Shown here: positions 8,568 through 20,427 of the stretch, piece by piece
Layout of the letters: each line of letters begins with the position of its first letter
Numbering within the stretch: position 1 is the stretch's first letter
NCBI GenBank assembly: GCA_014727835.1
Contig: WJMT01000104.1
Coordinates: 1 to 64,000 of the forward strand
DNA: 64,000 bases
Direction of reading: 5' to 3'
DNA from: Candidatus Aminicenantota bacterium
Lineage (GTDB): Bacteria > Acidobacteriota > Aminicenantia > Aminicenantales > Aminicenantaceae
The notes under the pieces: model-generated
Told to the model about the DNA's origin: nothing
The model's input: only the letters and a program-made list of their open reading frames with translations
Databases searched by the model: none
Translations under genes and position numbers: made by a program

Positions 8568-9536
8568 TTATTCCAACATGATTAACTGAACAGCTGACCG
8601 AGAGCAGTGATAAGAACAGAGTCCGCATCCAAAGCAGTGATCCTTCCAGATTGCAATCTCCTCCTCTTGGAAAGAGATGGCTCCGAACAGACACTTCTCC
8701 GCGCATAATCCACACCTGTCGCAGAGTTCTGTATTGATTCGGGCGGTGAATCCGGACCGGCCCATGGATGTGGCTATTCCGAGTTTTTTCAGTCCCTGGA
8801 CAAACACGCAGCAGCACTCACAGCAGTTACACAAATACTCTGGTGTCTCCACGTTATTTATGGCATGGACCAGATCATGTTCCTGAGCTGTATCCAGGAC
8901 CTCAAGAGCCCTCTGAACACTTATCTCCTTTCCTATATTCCGGGAGATGAAAAACTCAGCTTTGTCATTCAAAGAAAGACAGACCTCCAGCGGCCTGCAG
9001 CAGTTTTGGAAAGTGGAGCGGCAAAGGCATTGGACCACTGCGATCTTCGGGGAGGCCTGCACATAGTTACGCGCCTGATGATAAGGGATGAGCTGTCTTT
9101 TGTCTTCAATGGCAACCTCAACGGGAAGGACCCTGTACACAGGTTTTTCGCTCTCCTGCATCTCTTTTTTTGCCCGTTCCATCACACATTCCTGTATAAC
9201 CGACAGATCATTCAAGGACAATTGAGAAAATTCAGAACTGTGAATGATGAATCTTTTGAGGATGCCTTCTAGGCTGCAGCTTGAATAGAATTTTTTTCCA
9301 TCTATGACCTGTCTAAACAAATAACCTTTTTCAAAACAAGATACAAGGATTGTTGCCGGCAAATCAGTGAACCTCAAGAAAACCTCCCGGGCTCTGACCT
9401 TTTTGTCAGCAAGATAGCTGAGAAGGACCGTTTCGTGTTCAGAGAGGATTTTGGGAATGATCTTATGGAGCTTCTCGGGAACTCCAAATTTTTTTATAAA
9501 TGATTGAAGAACCGGGTCGCTCTGGTCTTGACTCAT
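8568..9536 (-). CDS. 4Fe-4S dicluster binding protein with N-terminal winged-helix-like region
   Basis: 322 residues, cytoplasmic (no signal). The C-terminus holds two ferredoxin motifs, CDRCGLCAEKC (from residue 272) and CFGCGLCSYHC (from 301), sufficient for two [4Fe-4S] clusters. A separate Cys-rich centre, CLCRSTFQNCC...EVC and CNCCECCC, matches a family of 4Fe-4S proteins widespread in anaerobes whose redox role is not defined. Residues 1-110 resemble a small helical winged-helix domain (SEHETVLLSYLADKKVRAREV). Last gene of the operon that begins at 12923, 61 bp after the CPBP gene. The presence of a low-potential Fe-S protein suggests an anaerobic host. Confidence 0.8.
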   Translation of the reverse strand: MSQDQSDPVLQSFIKKFGVPEKLHKIIPKILSEHETVLLSYLADKKVRAREVFLRFTDLPATILVSCFEKGYLFRQVIDGKKFYSSCSLEGILKRFIIHSSEFSQLSLNDLSVIQECVMERAKKEMQESEKPVYRVLPVEVAIEDKRQLIPYHQARNYVQASPKIAVVQCLCRSTFQNCCRPLEVCLSLNDKAEFFISRNIGKEISVQRALEVLDTAQEHDLVHAINNVETPEYLCNCCECCCVFVQGLKKLGIATSMGRSGFTARINTELCDRCGLCAEKCLFGAISFQEEEIAIWKDHCFGCGLCSYHCSRSAVQLIMLE

Positions 9537-9597: not shown

Positions 9598-10374
9598 TCA
9601 ACCGGAGGCAAATCTGACAAACTTTTCGCGGCTGAAAACAATAAACACCAGAATGAGACTGAGAATCAGTCCTATGGAAGTTATGATTGTTATCTCATTG
9701 AGATGAGCCTTGATCATCTCCTCTTTGATCACAGCATCCATGGACCCGGCGATGAAAAAATGATAGGAAATGCAGGCCCATAAGTTTCCCTTGGTCTTGT
9801 AGAAAATAAAGCCGAAGGGAAATGACATCACAAGTCCGGCGGTTACTGAAATCATGATTTCATTGATATTGTGCCCTATAATGAGATTAGCTAGGTGGGC
9901 AGGGCCAAAAAACAATCCTGTGATCAAGGCAGCTGTGTACCATTTTGTAGCCGATGAAAGTCTGTTGAATAAAACCCCTCTGAAAAGGCCTTCTTCAAAT
10001 AAGCCGGGCCCGATCAATGCCAGAAAGATCATAACAATGGAATTCCATGAAAAATGGATGGGAACTTTATAAATCACACATCCTATTATCCAGGATAGGA
10101 TAAAAGGCAAAGAAGCAGCCAATCCCGATAGGAAGGGCTTCATGAATTTCTTCTTAAAACCTAAAAAAGGAAATATTTTAGGTACATTTCCTGTGTAAAA
10201 GATCACAACTCCGGAAAACAACACAGTCAATCGGATCAGATAAACAAACAATCCATCCGCAAAACTTCTCACAGCCGGAAACATATCTCTGAATAAAAAA
10301 TTAAATCCGGTTATGGCTACCAGATAAATGATTAAGGAAACCCAAAGTGCTTTGATGATGTGTTTTGTTTTCAT
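9598..10374 (-). CDS. CPBP-family intramembrane metalloprotease
   Basis: 258 residues, about seven predicted transmembrane segments. The conserved glutamic motif is intact: GLFEEGLFRG (Glu127, Glu128, Arg132), and the following helix has FFGPAHLANL (His160), as in CPBP/Abi proteases related to Rce1. Such proteins cleave membrane-embedded or prenylated substrates in eukaryotes; bacterial substrates are mostly unknown. The start lies 4 bp after the stop of the upstream unknown gene, so the two are translationally close and cotranscribed in the sigma54 operon that begins at 12923. One of three CPBP proteins in 6 kb. Confidence 0.88.
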   Translation of the reverse strand: MKTKHIIKALWVSLIIYLVAITGFNFLFRDMFPAVRSFADGLFVYLIRLTVLFSGVVIFYTGNVPKIFPFLGFKKKFMKPFLSGLAASLPFILSWIIGCVIYKVPIHFSWNSIVMIFLALIGPGLFEEGLFRGVLFNRLSSATKWYTAALITGLFFGPAHLANLIIGHNINEIMISVTAGLVMSFPFGFIFYKTKGNLWACISYHFFIAGSMDAVIKEEMIKAHLNEITIITSIGLILSLILVFIVFSREKFVRFASG

Positions 10375-10378
10375 GGTC

Positions 10379-11470
10379 TTATCTCCACTTTGTATTTGGC
10401 AAGACTTCCTCCTCTATAAATAGGTTCCACACTTTTCCTGAAGCCGACAGATCGTTCTCCATTCCCCAGAATCCCTTTAGCTGGACCAGAGAAGCCAGAA
10501 GAAACACCATCTTATTATTTTCTCTGTAAAGACAGCCTGCAAATCTGTAGGACTGTTCACTTGTTTGGTCCTCTCGCGTCATTCTGAAGGTATAAGTTCC
10601 CTCGCCTCGGATGCCATTTTGTTGTTTTCTAATCTCATTTAACCGGAATTCAGTGATCCGGCTTTGGACAGAGCCCTCGCTTATGGATTCAGATTGGGTT
10701 ATCTCTTCCAGAAACTGCCGGAACAGAGTTTCTGATACTTTGTCCTCACTCTGTTTCCAGTGAAGTTCTATGTGCTTTTCAGAATCAGTAAGGAGGGTCC
10801 ACAAAGATCCTCTGTGTTTTGTGATTCCATCCGGGTACCATTCCTTATACAGGAACGGTTTGGTTTTCCAGTTTGACGGCTTAAAAAAAGATATGCTCCA
10901 TTCGGGAGAATGGTATACAGAGGTAAGCCTCTCATCTAAATCTTTTTTATGGGATTGATGACAGGACACAGCGGCTGTGATTTCCTCCTGCAGGTCCAAA
11001 AACTCCTGCCGGGTTCCTTTTCTCACATTGATGTTGCAGTCAGCTGTGAACTGGCGGCTGGTTTCAGGGCAGTTCCACACAATGAATCGGGTGCGGACCG
11101 CTCCATTGTAAATGGTGCCTTGGGTATAAAATCCCTTATGACCGCAGATCTCGATTTCTCCTTCTTGTCCTGTGAGTTCGAAATCCATGTTCTCTCCCCA
11201 AAAATTCAGCAGATGATGCCGGACATATTCCAGGGATATATCTTTGTTTTTCTCTGTTAAAGGCCTCCAGTGCAGAAAATACATCAGCCATTTTGAACTG
11301 TGGAGCTTGATGAAGCCGTCTGTGCCCTGAGATTCATCATACACTTCCCATCCCGGATCCATTCTCTTTAATCCGTTAAGATCGATAGAATCCGTTTTGA
11401 CTAGAAAAGAGCCAAAAATTATGGGTCCCAAAAAAAGAAAAAGAAATAAAAAAGCTGTTTTTCTGCTCAT
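10379..11470 (-). CDS. Unrecognised exported protein
   Basis: 363 residues. N-terminal hydrophobic stretch (KTAFLFLFLFLGPIIFGSFLV) looks like a signal peptide or single anchor. The rest is a soluble mixed protein with two similar-looking halves, each containing a 'Trp-Ser-Ile/Phe-Lys... Trp' pattern (SSKWLMYFLHWRPL, SPEWSISFFKPSNW) and a segment dealing with an EGxYxxxG-like strand (GHKGFYTQGTIYNG, GIRGEGTYTFRM), suggesting an internal duplication. No known family recognised. Located between the rhodanese/methylase gene (61 bp upstream) and the CPBP protease gene (4 bp downstream) in a sigma54 operon. Confidence 0.65.
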   Translation of the reverse strand: MSRKTAFLFLFLFLGPIIFGSFLVKTDSIDLNGLKRMDPGWEVYDESQGTDGFIKLHSSKWLMYFLHWRPLTEKNKDISLEYVRHHLLNFWGENMDFELTGQEGEIEICGHKGFYTQGTIYNGAVRTRFIVWNCPETSRQFTADCNINVRKGTRQEFLDLQEEITAAVSCHQSHKKDLDERLTSVYHSPEWSISFFKPSNWKTKPFLYKEWYPDGITKHRGSLWTLLTDSEKHIELHWKQSEDKVSETLFRQFLEEITQSESISEGSVQSRITEFRLNEIRKQQNGIRGEGTYTFRMTREDQTSEQSYRFAGCLYRENNKMVFLLASLVQLKGFWGMENDLSASGKVWNLFIEEEVLPNTKWR

Positions 11471-11531: not shown

Positions 11532-12923
11532 CTATCTCAGTGCTGATTCATAGGGTTTCCCTTCAAGAAAATCACCAATGAACAGCAGTCCCATGTATTT
11601 TTCTTTTTCATCCATCAATTTATCCCCCATATCTGCAATGGTCCCCCGGACTACTTTTTGTTTCTCAGGGTACCCGGCCCAGAAGATTACAGCACAGGGC
11701 ATATCTTCCGGAAAAATTTTTCCTAAAACTGAAAAAAGTCTTTCCGGGTTCCCCAATGCCATGTACAAAACCAAGTTTGGCTGGTATTTTGACAAATCTT
11801 TGAGAATCTGCAAATCCTGCATACCGGGCCCTAACATGAGCATGGGAGAGCTTTGAACAACCATACGGGCATCAAATGCAGGAATCACACTCTTTCCCAA
11901 AACTGCCATGGCTGCGGCATCACTGCTCATTCCCGGGATAATCACTACATCCTGAGAATCAAATTGTTCACTGTACATTTGGCTGGGACCAAAGAGACAA
12001 GGATTCCCATTGTCCAGCAGCCCCACATCTTTTCCCTTCTCAAGCAGTCTCTTGATTTCATCGATCCTTTTTTCCCTGATGCGGAAGCGCTCTATCCTGA
12101 ATTTTCCCATTTCTTCTTTGGCCAGACGGTGCAGATTTTTTCCCTTATAATCAAACAATCCTTTCCAGGGATCAAATAGAATGGTTTTATTCTTTATATA
12201 ATCCTTGAATAATTCCGCATGTTCATTTGATGCAGCAATGAAATCCATTTTTTTCATGGTTTCTAAGGCTTGAACAGTGGACATCAGAGGCCCGGCCGGA
12301 CCTGTGCCAATAACAAACAGTTGCCCTCTTTTTTTTGATTCCATATTCTCTTCAAACTTGATACTCTGATGGATTTCTTGCCACTCCTGCCATCCTCCCT
12401 TAAAACGAAGAACCTTTTTATACCCTAAAGTCACAGCCCATCGGGCTGCAAGGGGACTTCTGGTGCAGTCTGGCCGTCTGCAGTAAAAAATAACTTCTTC
12501 GTTTCTATTCTGAGGCAGGCGGCTGAGAAGCTCCGCTAATTTGCTTTGAGGCATGTATTCTTCACCTGATGAACTGTCTATCAAAACAAAGTCCATATCC
12601 CTGCTTTGATTTCTGATAATTTCTTCCAATTCCGCCTCAACTCTTGTCCCAGGGCCAAATCCGTATGAATCTATGGAAACATTTACAGCTCCCGGAATAT
12701 GACCGGCTTTGTACTCTTCCGGAGGTCTGCAGTCAATCAAAGTGAATCCATCATGACGGGTGATCTTTTCACGCATTTTCTGGGCACTGATCAATCCATA
12801 GCTGATATGAGATTCTGGATGTCCGCTGGTTTTTATATAAGATACATTGAGGACATTGGAATGGCCCCTCAAAAATAGAAAGGAAAAAAGGACCATCATG
12901 ATAATGGCAAAAAGTCTTTTCAT
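11532..12923 (-). CDS. Exported rhodanese - tetrapyrrole methylase-like fusion
   Basis: 463 residues. Signal peptide or anchor at 2-20 (KRLFAIIMMVLFSFLFLRG). Residues 45-185 are a rhodanese domain: DCRPPEEYKAGHIPGAVNV and the active-site loop FYCRRPDCTRSP (Cys148), a loop longer than the classic CxxGxR. Residues 200-450 resemble the tetrapyrrole (corrin/porphyrin) methylase fold: GTGPAGPLMSTVQAL near 206, a 'GLLDNGNPCLFGP' segment and 'VVIIPGMSSDAAAMAVLGK'. This fold normally uses cytosolic S-adenosylmethionine, so an export signal is odd. First gene of the operon running to 8568, with its own sigma54 promoter 35 bp upstream and GGAG before the ATG. Domain identities are fairly sure; the reaction is unknown. 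Confidence 0.78.
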   Translation of the reverse strand: MKRLFAIIMMVLFSFLFLRGHSNVLNVSYIKTSGHPESHISYGLISAQKMREKITRHDGFTLIDCRPPEEYKAGHIPGAVNVSIDSYGFGPGTRVEAELEEIIRNQSRDMDFVLIDSSSGEEYMPQSKLAELLSRLPQNRNEEVIFYCRRPDCTRSPLAARWAVTLGYKKVLRFKGGWQEWQEIHQSIKFEENMESKKRGQLFVIGTGPAGPLMSTVQALETMKKMDFIAASNEHAELFKDYIKNKTILFDPWKGLFDYKGKNLHRLAKEEMGKFRIERFRIREKRIDEIKRLLEKGKDVGLLDNGNPCLFGPSQMYSEQFDSQDVVIIPGMSSDAAAMAVLGKSVIPAFDARMVVQSSPMLMLGPGMQDLQILKDLSKYQPNLVLYMALGNPERLFSVLGKIFPEDMPCAVIFWAGYPEKQKVVRGTIADMGDKLMDEKEKYMGLLFIGDFLEGKPYESALR

Positions 12924-12957: not shown

Positions 12958-12975
12958 TTGCAGGATTCATGCCAA
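12958..12975 (-). promoter_or_regulatory. Sigma54 (-24/-12) promoter of rhodanese-methylase operon
   Basis: Minus strand TTGGCATGAATCCTGCAA: GG at 12973-12972, GC at 12961-12960, 10 bases between. Predicted transcript start near 12949, about 26 bases before ATG 12923. Palindrome at 13062-13078 is the presumed activator site. Confidence 0.82.
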
Positions 12976-13078: not shown

Positions 13079-13353
13079 TAAGAATTGAATATAACAACCT
13101 GGATTATTCATGAGTCAAGATTGCTTTGTCATGGCCAAGAACACAGTAACAAATCCATCTCATTAAGCTTAGTCCGAAGCAGACAAAGATATCACTTGCC
13201 TATAGAACCCGCCTAAAATTTTTCAGACCATCCAGTGAATTGTTTCAACCCGGGATAAACCTAAAATGAATAATTTTCGTAGAACTTCTTAAACAGGAAG
13301 ATAATGCAAAATAATTTTTTTTCGTCTTAGTGAATACAAAAAAGGAGGACCGT

Positions 13354-14067
13354 ATGTATCAAAGCAGACCGGACAACAATCAAAGTCAATTAATATGGTT
13401 GTTTTTCCTTGTTCTATCATGGTTCGCTATCACCCTACTTACTCCTTCCATAAACAAACTCTATGACTTTCACTCAATAAATCCTTGGATATTAGCCTAT
13501 ATCCGCATGGCTCTTATGCTGGCAGTCTCTTGGATCTATATCCACATCCGTGAGAAACAATCCTTTTTTCAAGGATTCAACATCTCATTCAAAAACTTTA
13601 GTCGAAATCTTTTCTGGGCAGTGGTATTTTTCGCTGCTGCTTATCTTGTGGAAAAACTCTACAACTTACTTATAATGAAACCTCTGATTCCTGAAATGTT
13701 TACCGCCTCATCAAGCGGAGGAAAAGCTGTAACTCATTCTTTAGGAGAACGTTTGTTTGAGTATTTTTATATTGTTTTTGAAGGGGTAGTGGAAGTCTTT
13801 GTGTTTATTGGTGTGCTGGTCGACCGGCTGGCAAAAAGGTGGGGATGGACGATGTCTATTATCACTGGAAATATCATCTTTGCTCTTTGGCACTACTCCT
13901 ATTGGCGAATGGGATGGCTTCCCGGAACCGTACTGATTGTTTTGACCTTCATCATGGGTTTCGTCATTTCGCTCAATTATATGAAAACAAAGAACACGCT
14001 CAGTTCTGCTCTTTGTCATATATTCGTTGATTCTCCATCTGCTATCAAAATCCTGTTAGGAAAATAG
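13354..14067 (+). CDS. CPBP-like membrane protein with degenerate catalytic motif
   Basis: 237 residues. AAGGAGGA just upstream selects ATG 13354 over an in-frame GTG at 13330. Several transmembrane helices and the general CPBP order are visible, but the usual EExxxR motif reads EVFVFIG (Glu147 then Val148, no Arg), while the second-helix His survives (FALWH, His180). The protein is therefore probably proteolytically inactive, or an old divergent member. It is the only + strand gene within the 5.6-22 kb minus-strand block, and its 3' end overlaps the antisense tail of a broken hydrolase gene by 52 bp. Confidence 0.7.
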   Translation: MYQSRPDNNQSQLIWLFFLVLSWFAITLLTPSINKLYDFHSINPWILAYIRMALMLAVSWIYIHIREKQSFFQGFNISFKNFSRNLFWAVVFFAAAYLVEKLYNLLIMKPLIPEMFTASSSGGKAVTHSLGERLFEYFYIVFEGVVEVFVFIGVLVDRLAKRWGWTMSIITGNIIFALWHYSYWRMGWLPGTVLIVLTFIMGFVISLNYMKTKNTLSSALCHIFVDSPSAIKILLGK

Positions 14068-14669
14068 ACGCTAGAGACGAACTTGTTAAAAGAGTCAGAA
14101 ATCCCAGCCCACACCACTGCAGCCTTGATTTTTTTGGTTTTCGTCAGGGCGATGTACGTCATCATTCCACCCCTGCTCACTCCGTACATCCCAATTCTGG
14201 ATGTATCGGCTTTGTTTACATACCCTAAGGCAGGAATCAGATTAACCACATCGTTGATATCAGCGCCTCCGTATTCATCCTTTCCCTCACTACCAACACT
14301 TCCTCTATACTGGCTGCAAATAATGACATAACCTTTGCTTGATAGAAGCGCTAGAAGAAAAAACAAGAGCTTGTCATCAATTTTTCCAAGTTCTCCAAAT
14401 CCCCCACGGTTAAAGATAATACATGGATATTTGCCCTCTTTTTTAGGGACAACGAGGAAGCCTTTGATTTTCAATCCATCGCTCAAATAAGTCATCTGAA
14501 AAATCTCTACTTTCTCTAAATACTGAAATTCAGATTTGAATCTTCGTCTGTCATTCATTTTTTCAGTTACTTTAGAATAATATGGAGAGTTTGAGATATC
14601 AGTGATTTTTTCTCTCTTAATAATCTCTCCATTTTGACCAAAGAGAGCTTGATAGAATAGGTGAAACAA
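14016..14669 (-). pseudogene. Truncated alpha/beta-hydrolase (prolyl-oligopeptidase-like) remnant
   Basis: The frame contains an alpha/beta-hydrolase core: PKKEGKYPCIIFNRGG, the oxyanion-region CSQYRGSVGSEGKDEYGG and the nucleophile elbow GMYGVSRGG, as in S9-type hydrolases. About 20-25 residues after AAVVWAGISD it runs antisense through the end of the CPBP gene (stop at 14016), so the acid/His part is missing. The 5' end has only a TTG at 14669 with no ribosome binding site, though the frame upstream (back to a TAA at 14696) is hydrophobic, like a damaged signal peptide. Both ends thus look lost. Follows the CPBP gene at 14697 closely. Confidence 0.7.
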
Positions 14670-14696: not shown

Positions 14697-15695
14697 TTAC
14701 CTTGGGTCAGGGATCCTTTTTCTGATAAAGGAAAGCCCCAGAAACAAAGCCCCTAAAACCGCATAAACCACTAGGCGGATGCTGGATCCGTATCGATCCG
14801 TGAAAACACTCCGTCCCCAGGCAATGAGGAACACCAGCAGTCCCAGCAGGAATCCAACTACGGTGTAGAGAATTCCTGACTCTGAAAACATCTGTTTAGT
14901 TTTGGTCCACAGCTCTTTAAGCTCTGTTCTTCCCACAAAGCAAAAACCCAACAAGATAAGTCCCAGCCCAAAGGCGGTCACATAAGAAAGGGCTACGTAT
15001 CCTTTGGCAAACACAAACGGTGCGTATACTGGAATGACATTAGCCAGAGTGTGGGTGGTCATGGCTGCAAGAAGACTGCCTGTAGCATAGTAGATGAGAC
15101 AGAACACAGCCCCGCTTATCAGAACATTCAAAATCATCACCACGTTGTAATCAGGATGAGAGAAGTGATGGGTCAGACCGAACGGGATAAACGAAATGAA
15201 AAAACCCACAGCCGGAGCGATTTTCCGGCTGAACAGACCCTGGATATAACCCCGGTACCATATTTCTTCATGCCAGGCACCGGTGACAAACCCAAAAATG
15301 AGGCTCGTCAAGGTCATGATCACTAAGAGAAGGGGCAGTGGCATATCCGGAAACATACCTAAATTTTTGGAGATGGAATCCGCGTAAACAGAAATATTGG
15401 CGACTTCAAGAGGAAGAAGCACAATATAAAGCACACAAAATCCAATGAAACCAAACCAGATGTCCTTACCCCAGCTTCGATGGATGCGGAATCCCAGATC
15501 TTTAAGGGTCCAATTATCTTTCAGTCTTCTCACTGCATAAACCACCACAGCGATCACCACTCCTCGAGACAACCAGTAAGCTAAATTAGTGAGCAGGTTT
15601 TCCAATCCCAGAAATCGGTGAAGCAGAATCCCGAATATAGCTATAATAAAAGAAACTCCCAAATACTCAGAAAACACCACAGCTGTTTTTTTCAT
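14697..15695 (-). CDS. CPBP-family intramembrane metalloprotease
   Basis: 332 residues with about eight transmembrane helices. The active-site motifs are intact: AWHEEIWYRGY (Glu143, Glu144, Arg148), FGLTHHFSH (His176) and TTHTLANVIP. Larger than the 258-residue CPBP protein at 9598 because of an additional C-terminal pair of helices. Its start lies 22 bp after the PD40 lipoprotein stop, making it the last intact gene of the operon that begins with the receiver gene at 17487; a hydrolase remnant follows. Substrate unknown. Confidence 0.87.
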   Translation of the reverse strand: MKKTAVVFSEYLGVSFIIAIFGILLHRFLGLENLLTNLAYWLSRGVVIAVVVYAVRRLKDNWTLKDLGFRIHRSWGKDIWFGFIGFCVLYIVLLPLEVANISVYADSISKNLGMFPDMPLPLLLVIMTLTSLIFGFVTGAWHEEIWYRGYIQGLFSRKIAPAVGFFISFIPFGLTHHFSHPDYNVVMILNVLISGAVFCLIYYATGSLLAAMTTHTLANVIPVYAPFVFAKGYVALSYVTAFGLGLILLGFCFVGRTELKELWTKTKQMFSESGILYTVVGFLLGLLVFLIAWGRSVFTDRYGSSIRLVVYAVLGALFLGLSFIRKRIPDPR

Positions 15696-17076: not shown

Positions 17077-17487
17077 CTATCTCTGTTTTTTAACTGAATA
17101 TTCCCCGCTGCCTCTTGAATGACCTAAAAGATATTCTATGGACTGGGTTAGTGCTTCCAGTTCCAAAGGTTTCACAAAGAAGCAGTCCACAGCTGCTTGG
17201 TTCAATTCCTTTGGGTTGACCAAGTCTGGAAACGCTGAAATCAGGATGGCTTTACCTTTATACCCAGAGTCTCTAAATTTCTCCAGCATCTGTAATCCTG
17301 AATGTTGGGGCAACCTCATATCAGCGATGATGAGGTCAATATCCTCTCCCTGAAAACGCTTCAGGGCTTCATCTGAATCTTTAGCCGGATAAACCTTATA
17401 ATTTTCATGAAGAAGCAGGAAGAAAGTCTTTCGGATAGATTCATCGTCATCCACCACCACCACTTTCTTCTCATTGTTTTTTTTCAT
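17077..17487 (-). CDS. Single-domain response regulator (receiver)
   Basis: 136 residues from ATG 17487; AAGGAAC upstream sets this start. A complete receiver domain: acidic pair VVDDDES near 11-15, phospho-acceptor Asp56 in LIIADMRLP, the conserved Ser in AILISAFPD and Lys in CFFVKPLEL. No output domain. It heads an operon with the Fis-type protein and has its own sigma54 promoter, with the predicted transcript start 25-30 bases before the ATG. Likely phosphorylated by the kinase at 18976, acting as a phosphate sink, a partner of the Fis-type protein, or both. Confidence 0.88.
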   Translation of the reverse strand: MKKNNEKKVVVVDDDESIRKTFFLLLHENYKVYPAKDSDEALKRFQGEDIDLIIADMRLPQHSGLQMLEKFRDSGYKGKAILISAFPDLVNPKELNQAAVDCFFVKPLELEALTQSIEYLLGHSRGSGEYSVKKQR

Positions 17488-17523
17488 TTTTGTTCCTTTT
17501 TTCTGTATTCCAGATACTTCATA

Positions 17524-17541
17524 CAGCATATTTCATGCCAA
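17524..17541 (-). promoter_or_regulatory. Sigma54 (-24/-12) promoter of receiver operon
   Basis: Minus strand TTGGCATGAAATATGCTG: GG at 17539-17538, GC at 17527-17526, 10 bases between. Matches the two promoters at 8430 and 12958 at TGGCATGAA. Palindrome 108.5 bp upstream at 17627-17643. Confidence 0.82.
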
Positions 17542-17644: not shown

Positions 17645-18979
17645 TCAGATTTGAATCTGATAATCACTTATTTTTTTATCCAGAGTGGGTCGGCTGATGC
17701 TCAGAATCCGGCTGGCCTTGCTTTTGTTACCTTTGACTTGTTTCAAAACATGCTGAATATATTTCTTTTCAACCTCAGCTAAAGGAACCAATTGTTTGGG
17801 AAATATCTCCTTATCACTTTTTTCTATGGGGAGGTTTTCTTTGAGAAGCACATCCCCTTTAGCTAAGATCACAGCTCTGGTCAAGGCATTTTCCAGTTCT
17901 CTGACATTTCCTTTCCATGGAAAATCGACCAAAAAATCCATCACACCCGGAGGGACTTTTTTCACGTTTTTTCTCAGTTCCCTGTTTATCTTTTCCAAAA
18001 GATAAGCCACCAGATCAGGGATGTCCTCTTTTCTTTGACAAAGAGAAGGCAGATTGATCTCCACTACCTTTAGCCGGTAGTAGAGGTCTTCCCTGAATTT
18101 TCCCTGTTCGACCCGCTCTTTCAAGTCATGATTGGTGGCTGCAATGACTCTGGCTTCTGTTTGCAGTACTTTTTCACCTCCGACTTTCATATAGTCTCTG
18201 TTCTCAATCACCCTCAATAATTTGGACTGAAGGTTCAATGACACATCCCCGATTTCATCCAGAAAAAGTGTGCCTTTGCCAGCAACCTCAAATTTGCCCT
18301 TTGTCTCATGAGCCGCATCAGTAAAAGCCCCCTTGACATGACCGAACAATTCGCTTTCCAGCAGGGTGTCAGAAAGAGCCGAACAGTTGATAACAATGAA
18401 AGGTTCATCCCTGAAGCGGCTGTTGTAATGGATGGCTTTGGCCACCAGTTCCTTTCCTGTTCCGCTTTCGCCCTGAATCAACACATTGGCCCGTGTATTG
18501 GCTACAGAACCGATGAGTTTGTACACTTCTCTCATTTCCGGTGTGCTGCCGATGATATTGTCAATGGTGTATTCCTTCTGCTTCTCCCCTACCAGATAGC
18601 TCATTTTGTCTTCCAAGCTCTTTACTTTGTAGACTTTGCCGATCACCAGGTCCAGCTCCACATAATCCAGAGGTTTGACCAGATATTCAAATGCTCCTGA
18701 TTTGACAGCTTCCACTGTGGTTTTCATGTCATCAAAGGCCGTCATGATGATGATGCAGGCTCGAGGATTTTCCTTTTTGATTTTTTTCAGGACTTCCAAA
18801 CCATCCACATCCGGAAGGCGGATATCCAGAAGGACCAAATCCGGACGGTTTTCTTTGAATTCGCTGATCCCTGACTCACCGTCTGCTGCAGAAAAAACTT
18901 GAAACTCATTTTTTCGGAAGTGGGATGACAGGCTTTTTCGGATGAGTTTGTCATCGTCAATAATGAGAACAGATTTCAT
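17645..18979 (-). CDS. Sigma54-dependent NtrC-family response regulator
   Basis: 444 residues, full three-domain activator. Receiver 1-120 with phospho-acceptor Asp52 (LVLLDIRLP). AAA+ domain with Walker A GESGTGKE (170-177), the sigma54 contact loop GAFTDA (217-222, a known variant of GAFTGA) and Walker B GTLFLDEIGD. C-terminal Fis-type helix-turn-helix (VKGNKSKASRILSISRPTLD). It should bind palindromic enhancers and drive open-complex formation by RpoN polymerase. Its start overlaps the kinase stop by 4 bp, so kinase and regulator are a cognate pair. The three sigma54 promoters with a common palindrome directly downstream make it their likely activator. Confidence 0.95.
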   Translation of the reverse strand: MKSVLIIDDDKLIRKSLSSHFRKNEFQVFSAADGESGISEFKENRPDLVLLDIRLPDVDGLEVLKKIKKENPRACIIIMTAFDDMKTTVEAVKSGAFEYLVKPLDYVELDLVIGKVYKVKSLEDKMSYLVGEKQKEYTIDNIIGSTPEMREVYKLIGSVANTRANVLIQGESGTGKELVAKAIHYNSRFRDEPFIVINCSALSDTLLESELFGHVKGAFTDAAHETKGKFEVAGKGTLFLDEIGDVSLNLQSKLLRVIENRDYMKVGGEKVLQTEARVIAATNHDLKERVEQGKFREDLYYRLKVVEINLPSLCQRKEDIPDLVAYLLEKINRELRKNVKKVPPGVMDFLVDFPWKGNVRELENALTRAVILAKGDVLLKENLPIEKSDKEIFPKQLVPLAEVEKKYIQHVLKQVKGNKSKASRILSISRPTLDKKISDYQIQI

Positions 18980-20427
18980 TTGTCTCCCTCCACAGGCAGA
19001 ATGATTTCAAAACAAGCTCCCCCCTCTTCGCTCTCTTTGACTCTGATAGATCCCTGGTGCTGCTCAATGATTTTCTGGGCATTGGCCAAGCCTAAGCCGA
19101 TTCCAGAAGACTTGGTGGTGTAAAAAGGTTCGAAAATATTTTCTCTTTCTTGGTTTGGGATTCCGCTGCCGTTATCCATAACTTCCATTTTTACAGCATT
19201 TTTTTCACCCTCTTTTAAAAGAGTTGCTGAAATCTGAATCCGGCCTCCTTTATCCACAGCTTCTAGGGCGTTTCTCAAAAGATTGAGGATCACCTGCCTG
19301 ATCTTATCTCCATCCACATAAAGTGAGGGAAGGTTTTCCTGGAAATCTGTGCGCAGCTTAATTTTTTTCTCTTCTAGGGAATCTGAAATCATTTTAACAG
19401 ACTCCTCTATGATCTCCTGGATAGAGAACCTCTCCATATTGAGCTCAGAGATCCGAGTGAAATCCAAGAGCTCTTTGATGAATTTTTCAATATGTCCGAT
19501 CCCTTCTTGAGAAAGATCCAAGTGCTCTCTTTCCAGTTCCTCCAGTTTATCACTCTGGAGGACTTTTTGGATATTCAGATTGGCGGAAGTGAGAGGATTT
19601 CTGATCTCATGGGCGATGCTGGCTGAAATCCTGCCTATGGAAGCCAGCTTTTCTGCCTGGATGAGCTTCTTGTTCGCAACTTCCATCCTTTTTTTGGCTA
19701 GAAGAAGCTGACGGCTCATTTCATTGAAACTCTCAGCCAACTGCCTGATTTCATCCTGGGAGCTGACTTTGATCTTTTTTGAGAAATCACCCCTTGAAAT
19801 CCGAACCGTCCCATCCACCAGTTTTTTAATGGGGCCCGCAATCCGGTTGGAGAGAAACACCGCTCCGCCAATACCAACCAAAAGTCCTCCCAATCCAATA
19901 AGGATCAGCATAAACCGGGTCTGCTTGATTTCCTTCTGCATATCTTCCAAAGACAGCCCAATTTTTATGGAACCCCATTTGGTGGAAGAACCTCTGGTGA
20001 AAACCGGGACTTCGATTTCCAACACTGATATGAGATTTTTGTTGTCATTATATTGGATTTCTTTGGTCTGGAAAAAATAAGTATTCTCATCAACCGGGCC
20101 CTTTAGATGGGAGACCTTAAAGATTTGTTCGTATTTTTCAGCAAAATCACTGGCTGCAAATGGCCGGTTGTACTGGTCAAAAAAAGCCACATACAACAGT
20201 TTTTGATCAATGTTTTCCTGGATATTCCGTTCCACTCCTTCCGCATCCCAAAACATAAACGGTTCCAGATTCAAATATGCAATGTTCTTAGCAGTTAAAA
20301 CTCCTTTGCTCTTCTGCTCCTCAAATATCGCTTTTTCCTCTCTTCTTTCAATCAGAAAGAGCATGGCTGCCACTAGGAAAAAGAGCAGAATCATTATGGC
20401 TGTTATGAATTTAGCTCTCAGAGACAT
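18976..20427 (-). CDS. Membrane sensor histidine kinase (HAMP, HisKA, HATPase)
   Basis: 483 residues. TM1 at about 9-25, periplasmic sensor 26-170, TM2 172-193, HAMP to about 248, then HisKA with phospho-acceptor His273 (SIAHEIRNPLT), N-box NLLRNALEAV and G-boxes MDNGSGIP and GIGLGLANA. The periplasmic part is all-round compatible with a small Cache/PAS-like sensor, not identified further. Overlaps the regulator gene by 4 bp and follows the peptide-binding-protein gene by 25 bp, so the binding protein may present a ligand to it. Likely phosphorylates the NtrC-type regulator and possibly the separate receiver at 17077. Confidence 0.93.
   Translation of the reverse strand: MSLRAKFITAIMILLFFLVAAMLFLIERREEKAIFEEQKSKGVLTAKNIAYLNLEPFMFWDAEGVERNIQENIDQKLLYVAFFDQYNRPFAASDFAEKYEQIFKVSHLKGPVDENTYFFQTKEIQYNDNKNLISVLEIEVPVFTRGSSTKWGSIKIGLSLEDMQKEIKQTRFMLILIGLGGLLVGIGGAVFLSNRIAGPIKKLVDGTVRISRGDFSKKIKVSSQDEIRQLAESFNEMSRQLLLAKKRMEVANKKLIQAEKLASIGRISASIAHEIRNPLTSANLNIQKVLQSDKLEELEREHLDLSQEGIGHIEKFIKELLDFTRISELNMERFSIQEIIEESVKMISDSLEEKKIKLRTDFQENLPSLYVDGDKIRQVILNLLRNALEAVDKGGRIQISATLLKEGEKNAVKMEVMDNGSGIPNQERENIFEPFYTTKSSGIGLGLANAQKIIEQHQGSIRVKESEEGGACFEIILPVEGDK

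Follow-up and report, generated by a model that had tools for sequence, protein, structure and literature searches.

What should a tetrapyrrole-methylase fold, whose usual job is the building of vitamin-B12-type rings inside cells, do in a protein that starts with a signal peptide and a rhodanese domain? This question is raised by a gene in a 64,000-nucleotide stretch of contig WJMT01000104.1 from Candidatus Aminicenantota bacterium (henceforth the window), where an open reading frame on the minus strand (11532–12923) runs from ATG to stop and codes for 463 amino acids. An earlier note had read its product as an exported rhodanese fused to a tetrapyrrole-methylase-like domain, and this was borne out, as both domains score above their Pfam cut-offs in this frame. 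The first 22 residues (12858–12923, minus strand) read MKRLFAIIMMVLFSFLFLRGHS and are followed by N; they have the make-up of a Sec-type signal or anchor, with two basic residues, about 16 hydrophobic ones and a possible cleavage between GHS and N. Homologues of either half each possess a similar hydrophobic N-terminus of their own: the free-standing methylase L002/L056 (G006), 63% identical, has a signal peptide, and the rhodanese homologue L003 (G013), 48% identical, is exported as well. Since K2 and R3 would impose an N-in/C-out orientation even on an uncleaved signal, both domains should face outward. Read in this way, the protein is very probably exported by Sec and would face the periplasm, and the claim that residues 1–22 form a signal gains from the exported homologues and from most of the methylase branch described below. 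Of the two options left by the note, a membrane-anchored enzyme facing inward is disfavoured by these charges and by signal-bearing relatives without rhodanese. The other, an exported protein in which the fold has taken another role, is better supported, because rhodanese-less relatives have signal peptides, canonical invariants are changed and the N-terminal charges agree with it.

The rhodanese domain (residues 49–183; 12375–12779, minus strand) matches PF00581 with an E-value of 2.8e-20 and 73.1 bits (cut-off 22.2), retains the active-site Cys148 and holds a further cysteine, Cys153, within CRRPDCTRS. What had been described as an unusually long Cys loop (CRRPDCTR) turned out to be ordinary for the lineage, as the Cys-x4-Cys pair is invariant in 7/7 aligned rhodaneses. 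The structural model of this half reached a pLDDT of 70.6 with an alignment of only 7 sequences. An exported rhodanese of the CRRPxCTRS type is also encoded in L003 (1471–2781), where it is joined to a metallo-beta-lactamase-like domain (named by reading) and not to a methylase fold.

The second half (residues 202–432; 11628–12320, minus strand) matches PF00590, the TP_methylase family, with an E-value of 8e-25 and 88.5 bits (cut-off 27.8), and carries GTGPAGP in place of GPGD and GNPCLFG in place of GDPxxYG. AlphaFold2, run with 25 relatives, returned a two-lobed methylase fold with a mean pLDDT of 91.8 and a pTM of 0.84. The top Foldseek match of this model was CobM (3ndc, E 6e-17), and VIA-align placed it on CbiF (1cbf) with Z 20.6 and an rmsd of 3.1 over 231 residues; other C-methylases followed at Z ~17–20 and borosin peptide methylases at Z ~17, the best matches being TP-methylases throughout. 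The earlier doubt whether the domain is of the methylase fold at all is thus dispelled.

The fusion itself is confined to a single genome among the 94 of the order, its own, and no second case came from viral contigs or from the 14 loci assigned to clade A in the species-genome scan introduced below (stop-to-stop frames of 281–352 aa). The search for the same architecture elsewhere, as proposed earlier, hence came back empty, but it revealed the exported methylase fold to be a widespread branch. A three-row methylase alignment run against 84,980 species genomes found 265 relatives, from which 79 loci were kept; 38 of these were sorted by motif and similarity into clades A (14), B (10), C (5) and D (7) plus two fragments (L088, L095), and the remaining 41 TP-methylase loci served as controls. 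Clade A members are 44–63% identical to the methylase half of the fusion protein and mostly show GPAG and GNP motifs. By a home-made rule, which is not SignalP and asks for a basic residue ahead of an uncharged run of 10 residues whose mean hydropathy is at least 1.9, signal peptides were detected in 12/15 rows of clade A, 11/11 of clade B and 6/7 of clade D. In clade C 5/7 rows have one, and the two exceptions are the downstream halves of tandem proteins that carry the signal on their upstream half. None was seen outside the branch (CbiF 0/16, CobA 0/5, RsmI 0/1). The three signal-less members of clade A all come from Bacillota, and a single change on the tree accounts for them.

This tree (IQ-TREE, 63 rows) splits 41 exported-side rows from 21 CbiF/CobA rows by one branch with 100/99 support, present in 100% of 200 bootstrap trees. 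Its other rows are 16 of the 41 controls, picked as CbiF on motif grounds, the CobA sequences of five loci (L005, L017, L039, L045 and L109, of which L109 also counts among the controls) and a single RsmI; the fragments L088 and L095, the further phylum matches L027–L032 and the families CbiL, CbiH, CbiE and Dph5 were left aside. The fusion protein falls into a 15-row clade A set (100/100), next to another Aminicenantes sequence. As the rest of this set comes from Desulfobacterota (Deltaproteobacteria) and Bacillota, a horizontal gain in the lineage of the fusion protein is suggested, and to judge from this placement the methylase domain was probably acquired in the Aminicenantes-lineage organism and then joined to the rhodanese. 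Two further architectures were met in the course of this survey: in L080 (5089–6795) and L083 (5089–6762) a TonB receptor gene is immediately followed by one for an exported protein that carries two methylase folds in tandem, and L144 (4583–6388, minus strand), from a genome of the window's phylum (Acidobacteriota), has the exported methylase fold behind a weak molybdopterin-oxidoreductase match. In the open-licence literature searched we found neither a description of the exported branch nor one of a tetrapyrrole methylase with rhodanese; one of the papers that came up speaks of CbiH.

Whether the SAM site is preserved, as the earlier note had asked, receives a divided answer. Four positions are invariant in 21/21 canonical rows: the GPGD Asp, which we take to be catalytic in CysG, an Arg that precedes the GDP motif by four residues, a Glu that follows this motif and, in the C-terminal lobe, a Ser/Thr. 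On the exported side 9/41 rows still have D or E at the position of the GPGD Asp, as do 0/16 of clade A plus the window; the Arg and the Glu are kept in 0/41 each, and the Ser/Thr has become Gly in 41/41. The fusion protein has Gly211 at the Asp position, and its Arg, Glu and Ser/Thr are changed as well. What stands is the GxG, the GDP/GNP loop (Asp in 26/41, Asn in 15/41), the PG (Gly in 41/41, Pro in 36/41) and two Ala (41/41), of which the PG and Ala loop positions presumably line the SAM site. The alignment depicts a cleft that appears kept with a catalytic face that appears changed; SAM might still be bound, and we consider with moderate confidence that the exported branch would have lost canonical SAM-dependent ring methylation. 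A CysG paper (PMC7018833) does not mention D248, and terms on SAM binding and the periplasm are absent from a review on tetrapyrrole biosynthesis (PMC7242693).

A distinct environment surrounds the branch. Neighbours were counted within the fetched flanks, with queries drawn from the relative loci themselves, and a TonB-dependent receptor was found near 25/38 branch loci versus 1/41 controls, many of which are archaea or Gram-positives without outer membrane (~13 come from outer-membrane bacteria, by record title); the single control receptor (L110) is 4.6 kb away. Receptors accompany 10/11 exported and 0/3 signal-less members of clade A, 9/10 loci of clade B, 3/5 of C, 2/7 of D and 1/2 fragments, and in clade A it mostly occupies the position immediately upstream of the methylase-fold gene. 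Genes for DUF4198 proteins (19/38), NikL-like proteins (11/38), an amino-acid-permease-like transporter (13/38) and TonB itself (5/38) recur as well, each against 0/41 controls, and single loci add TonB with ExbD (L073), a FecCD permease (L067) or Peripla_BP_2 with an ABC ATPase (L088). The signal-less Bacillota gene of L065 is preceded by an Opp/Nik-type ATPase and a NikA/CntA-type binding protein, best matched by NikA models at 256 bits, below the cut-off of 600. DUF4198 has been linked to nickel/cobalt ECF transporters and to iron-responsive TonB receptors in passages of two papers (PMC7190382, PMC11870441). Another recurring neighbour, an exported nucleoside hydrolase–FmdE fusion, is represented by L055 (6830–8329).

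Ten receptors adjacent to clade A genes share an in-frame TGA at one place, within RLPCP-U-DYYWWARC or RMP-U-I-U-DLWRW; these TGA-split receptors lie in L055 (476–2572 and 3554–5734), L057, L059, L060, L061, L062, L064, L067 and L068. Two of them were scanned and matched the NCBIfam PCPU and PUIUD TonB receptor models with 1267 and 1244 bits. A selenocysteine tRNA (L060, 2901–2988, minus strand) is encoded within the same 10 kb as a UGA receptor and an exported methylase fold. TonB receptor selenoproteins have been reported (PMC12013277, PMC13188914), and the PCPU and PUIUD types are already known to NCBIfam; the words "tetrapyrrole" and "methylase" are absent from the main text of both papers, which do not there mention a methylase-fold neighbour, and this constant companion was not met in the literature searched.

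The fusion gene's own locus is of another kind. No TonB-dependent receptor is present between 3001 and 21000 of the window or in L024, nor within the stretch examined around the closest relative (L056). Instead, the gene is followed on the minus strand by what is likely its operon: a 363 aa protein (10379–11470) with a signal-like N-terminus, without Pfam or NCBIfam match and with a homologue in only 1 other of the 94 genomes of the order; a CPBP/Rce1-like membrane protease (9598–10374; PF02517, E 8e-17); and a 322 aa protein (8568–9536) with a C-terminal 4Fe-4S domain (Fer4, PF00037, E 1.5e-5). Altogether three CPBP/Rce1-like membrane proteases lie within ~6 kb of the window (9598–10374, 13330–14067 and 14697–15695), and a short hydrolase (14016–14669, minus strand), possibly a truncated gene, matches the first half of Peptidase_S15 only.

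The earlier note also had the fusion gene head a sigma54 operon. A sigma54-like promoter, TGGCATGAATCCTGCA (12959–12974, minus strand), with one mismatch and GG-N10-GC spacing, lies 36 bp upstream of the ATG, same-strand genes follow, and an NtrC-like response regulator (17645–18979, minus strand), whose translation contains GESGTGKE and GAFTDA, presumably AAA+ sigma54-activator motifs, is a candidate activator, with its kinase (by reading) at 18976–20427. Two further sigma54-like sites occur just upstream of minus-strand genes (8445–8430 and 17540–17525); the latter overlaps the called start of a response regulator (17077–17529), so that its true start is suggested to be the internal ATG at 17487. 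Against this stands the number of such sites in the window, which is not significant (5 found versus 2.04 expected, with 9/100 shuffles reaching 5). Judging from these signals, a sigma54-controlled operon headed by the fusion gene is plausible.

At the scale of the genome (92% complete), PF00590 is matched by the fusion protein and RsmI only, and so no endogenous corrin pathway was found that it could serve. A role in the cell's own corrin or siroheme synthesis was set aside, no other C-methylase being found in this genome. Nine B12-binding domains in a genome without C-methylase except these two proteins suggest that the organism probably salvages corrinoids. Strict cobalamin import was set aside and kept as one possible cargo, as no cobalamin riboswitch, nor one of any other family, was detected at gathering thresholds in the window or at 23 loci of relatives. 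The inventory is completed by six receptor plug matches, of which five exceed the cut-off, and a single DUF4198 match, below its cut-off. A selenoprotein in the window itself was likewise discarded, the fusion gene using Cys; the tRNA-Sec search gave a borderline 47.9 bits (cut-off 47) and 13 lower matches in this genome, and all 14 control genomes also matched, which makes this search uninformative.

Taken together, we propose, with a probability of about one half, that the exported protein uses a CbiF-like cleft to bind or handle a metal chelate, possibly a metallo-tetrapyrrole, rather than to act as a SAM methylase, and is here joined to a CxxxxC rhodanese. In this model, the C-terminal domain would belong to an exported, CbiF-related branch that gave up canonical ring methylation and kept the two-lobed cleft for binding or chemically handling its ligand, whose assignment to metal chelates or metallo-tetrapyrroles is itself tentative. 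In Desulfobacterota, the exported fold would form part of a TonB-dependent uptake system together with the receptor, DUF4198 and NikL-like proteins, and in the Aminicenantes lineage the rhodanese might deliver thiol or persulfide groups to the bound ligand or its metal, or take them away. Against this proposal speak the three Bacillota members without a signal: the activity may operate in the cytosol as well, as would be more natural for an enzyme or chaperone than for a carrier in the periplasm. Further observations also speak against it: the missing receptor near the fusion gene and L056, the mostly receptor-less clade D, the sub-cut-off DUF4198 match, the lack of a riboswitch, the retained SAM-loop positions and the absence, in the fusion protein, of the HW in the clade A motif GPSHWY. 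A bolder version, in which a ring-building fold has come to work in the periplasm with a TonB-dependent outer-membrane receptor, frequently a selenocysteine-bearing one, to scavenge metallo-tetrapyrroles in anaerobic sediments (cobalt or nickel rings of dead cells, such as corrinoids or F430), with the rhodanese loosening or re-ligating the metal in the window organism, appears rather unlikely.

The same evidence can be read differently. The protein might be a periplasmic enzyme with a new chemistry, which alters an imported compound by stripping or swapping an axial ligand or side chain and draws persulfide or redox power from its Cys pair. Similar rhodaneses are joined to catalytic-looking partners (the metallo-beta-lactamase-like domain of L003, DsbD in TsoB), the signal-less Bacillota members suggest a catalyst, and in L144 the fold is attached to the weak molybdopterin-oxidoreductase match; however, we recognised no new catalytic set conserved throughout the branch and the fusion is known from one genome, so that we regard this alternative as possible, if somewhat doubtful. 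We are similarly hesitant about a periplasmic binding protein for a ligand other than a tetrapyrrole, be it an oxyanion or a metallophore for nickel, cobalt or iron. The NikL-like, DUF4198, NikA/CntA-type and FmdE neighbours would suit it, as would the transporter with SBP_bac_11, presumably of molybdate type, which an Acidobacteriota-phylum genome encodes next to the L004/L022 gene of clade D, but the closest match of the fold is CbiF, and its only small-molecule ligands known to us are tetrapyrroles and SAM.

An active SAM methylase, either anchored with its domain inside the cell or serving another substrate with a preserved pocket, could invoke the kept GDP/GNP, PG and Ala loop positions, the signal-less Bacillota members and the borosin peptide methylases that share the fold. 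Yet the positive-inside rule places the domain outside, where we know of no SAM, and the GPGD Asp is lost along with the other invariant residues, which makes this reading distinctly improbable. Least credible, and very improbable indeed, is an assembly chimera or a decaying, functionless gene: one genome of 94 in the order and a draft assembly of 132 contigs would allow it, but the frame is open over the joint, GC is 0.43 in both halves, each half keeps its family-conserved residues and a promoter-like site lies upstream.

If our preferred reading, a metal-chelate-handling protein on a CbiF-like cleft, is true, an enzyme family long studied for building cofactors also comprises a large exported branch with a different task, which has escaped notice because annotation reports no more than "methyltransferase". 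The position of this branch, mostly beside outer-membrane uptake receptors, would suggest the conversion of a biosynthetic enzyme into a protein for handling nutrients. The reading would also point to a candidate step in the periplasm, and hint at a cargo, for the selenoprotein TonB receptors; neither the NCBIfam model names nor the passages cited from PMC12013277 and PMC13188914 give their substrate.

How does this protein compare with known systems? It reaches no NCBIfam equivalog cut-off, and its best match is TsoB (NF045694), a rhodanese/DsbD-like selenoprotein (E 4.6e-18), at 64.6 bits against 805. Both have a rhodanese with a Cys/Sec pair four residues apart, CxxxxC here and UxxxxU in the table of a review (PMC13188914), but the fusion protein uses Cys and not Sec, and its partner is the methylase fold without DsbD match, whereas that of TsoB is, by family name, DsbD. 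The PCPU/PUIUD TonB receptor selenoproteins (NF049947, NF049944) directly adjoin the exported clade A relatives in Desulfobacterota and are absent beside the fusion gene. CbiF/CobM, the cobalt-precorrin-4/precorrin-4 C11-methyltransferase (TIGR01465; PDB 1cbf, 3ndc), shares the fold with its GxGP and PG loops and is the best profile match of the methylase half (family profile, 1.1e-28); however, the fusion protein is very probably exported, scores 60.9 bits against a cut-off of 259.65 and has lost the canonical invariants, and CbiF/CobM works in a corrin pathway of which none was found in this genome. The uroporphyrinogen-III methylase domain of CysG/CobA is reminiscent in its fold (Z 18.9) and in likewise joining it to a partner domain, although it is cytoplasmic, differs in its invariant residues and is matched below the equivalog cut-offs (CysG 42.5/400 bits, CobA 43/185 bits). 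A last parallel is provided by the borosin alpha-N-methyltransferases OphMA and SonM, SAM enzymes with peptide substrates: they are not exported, unlike the fusion protein, but they too have carried this fold into a job that is not concerned with tetrapyrroles.
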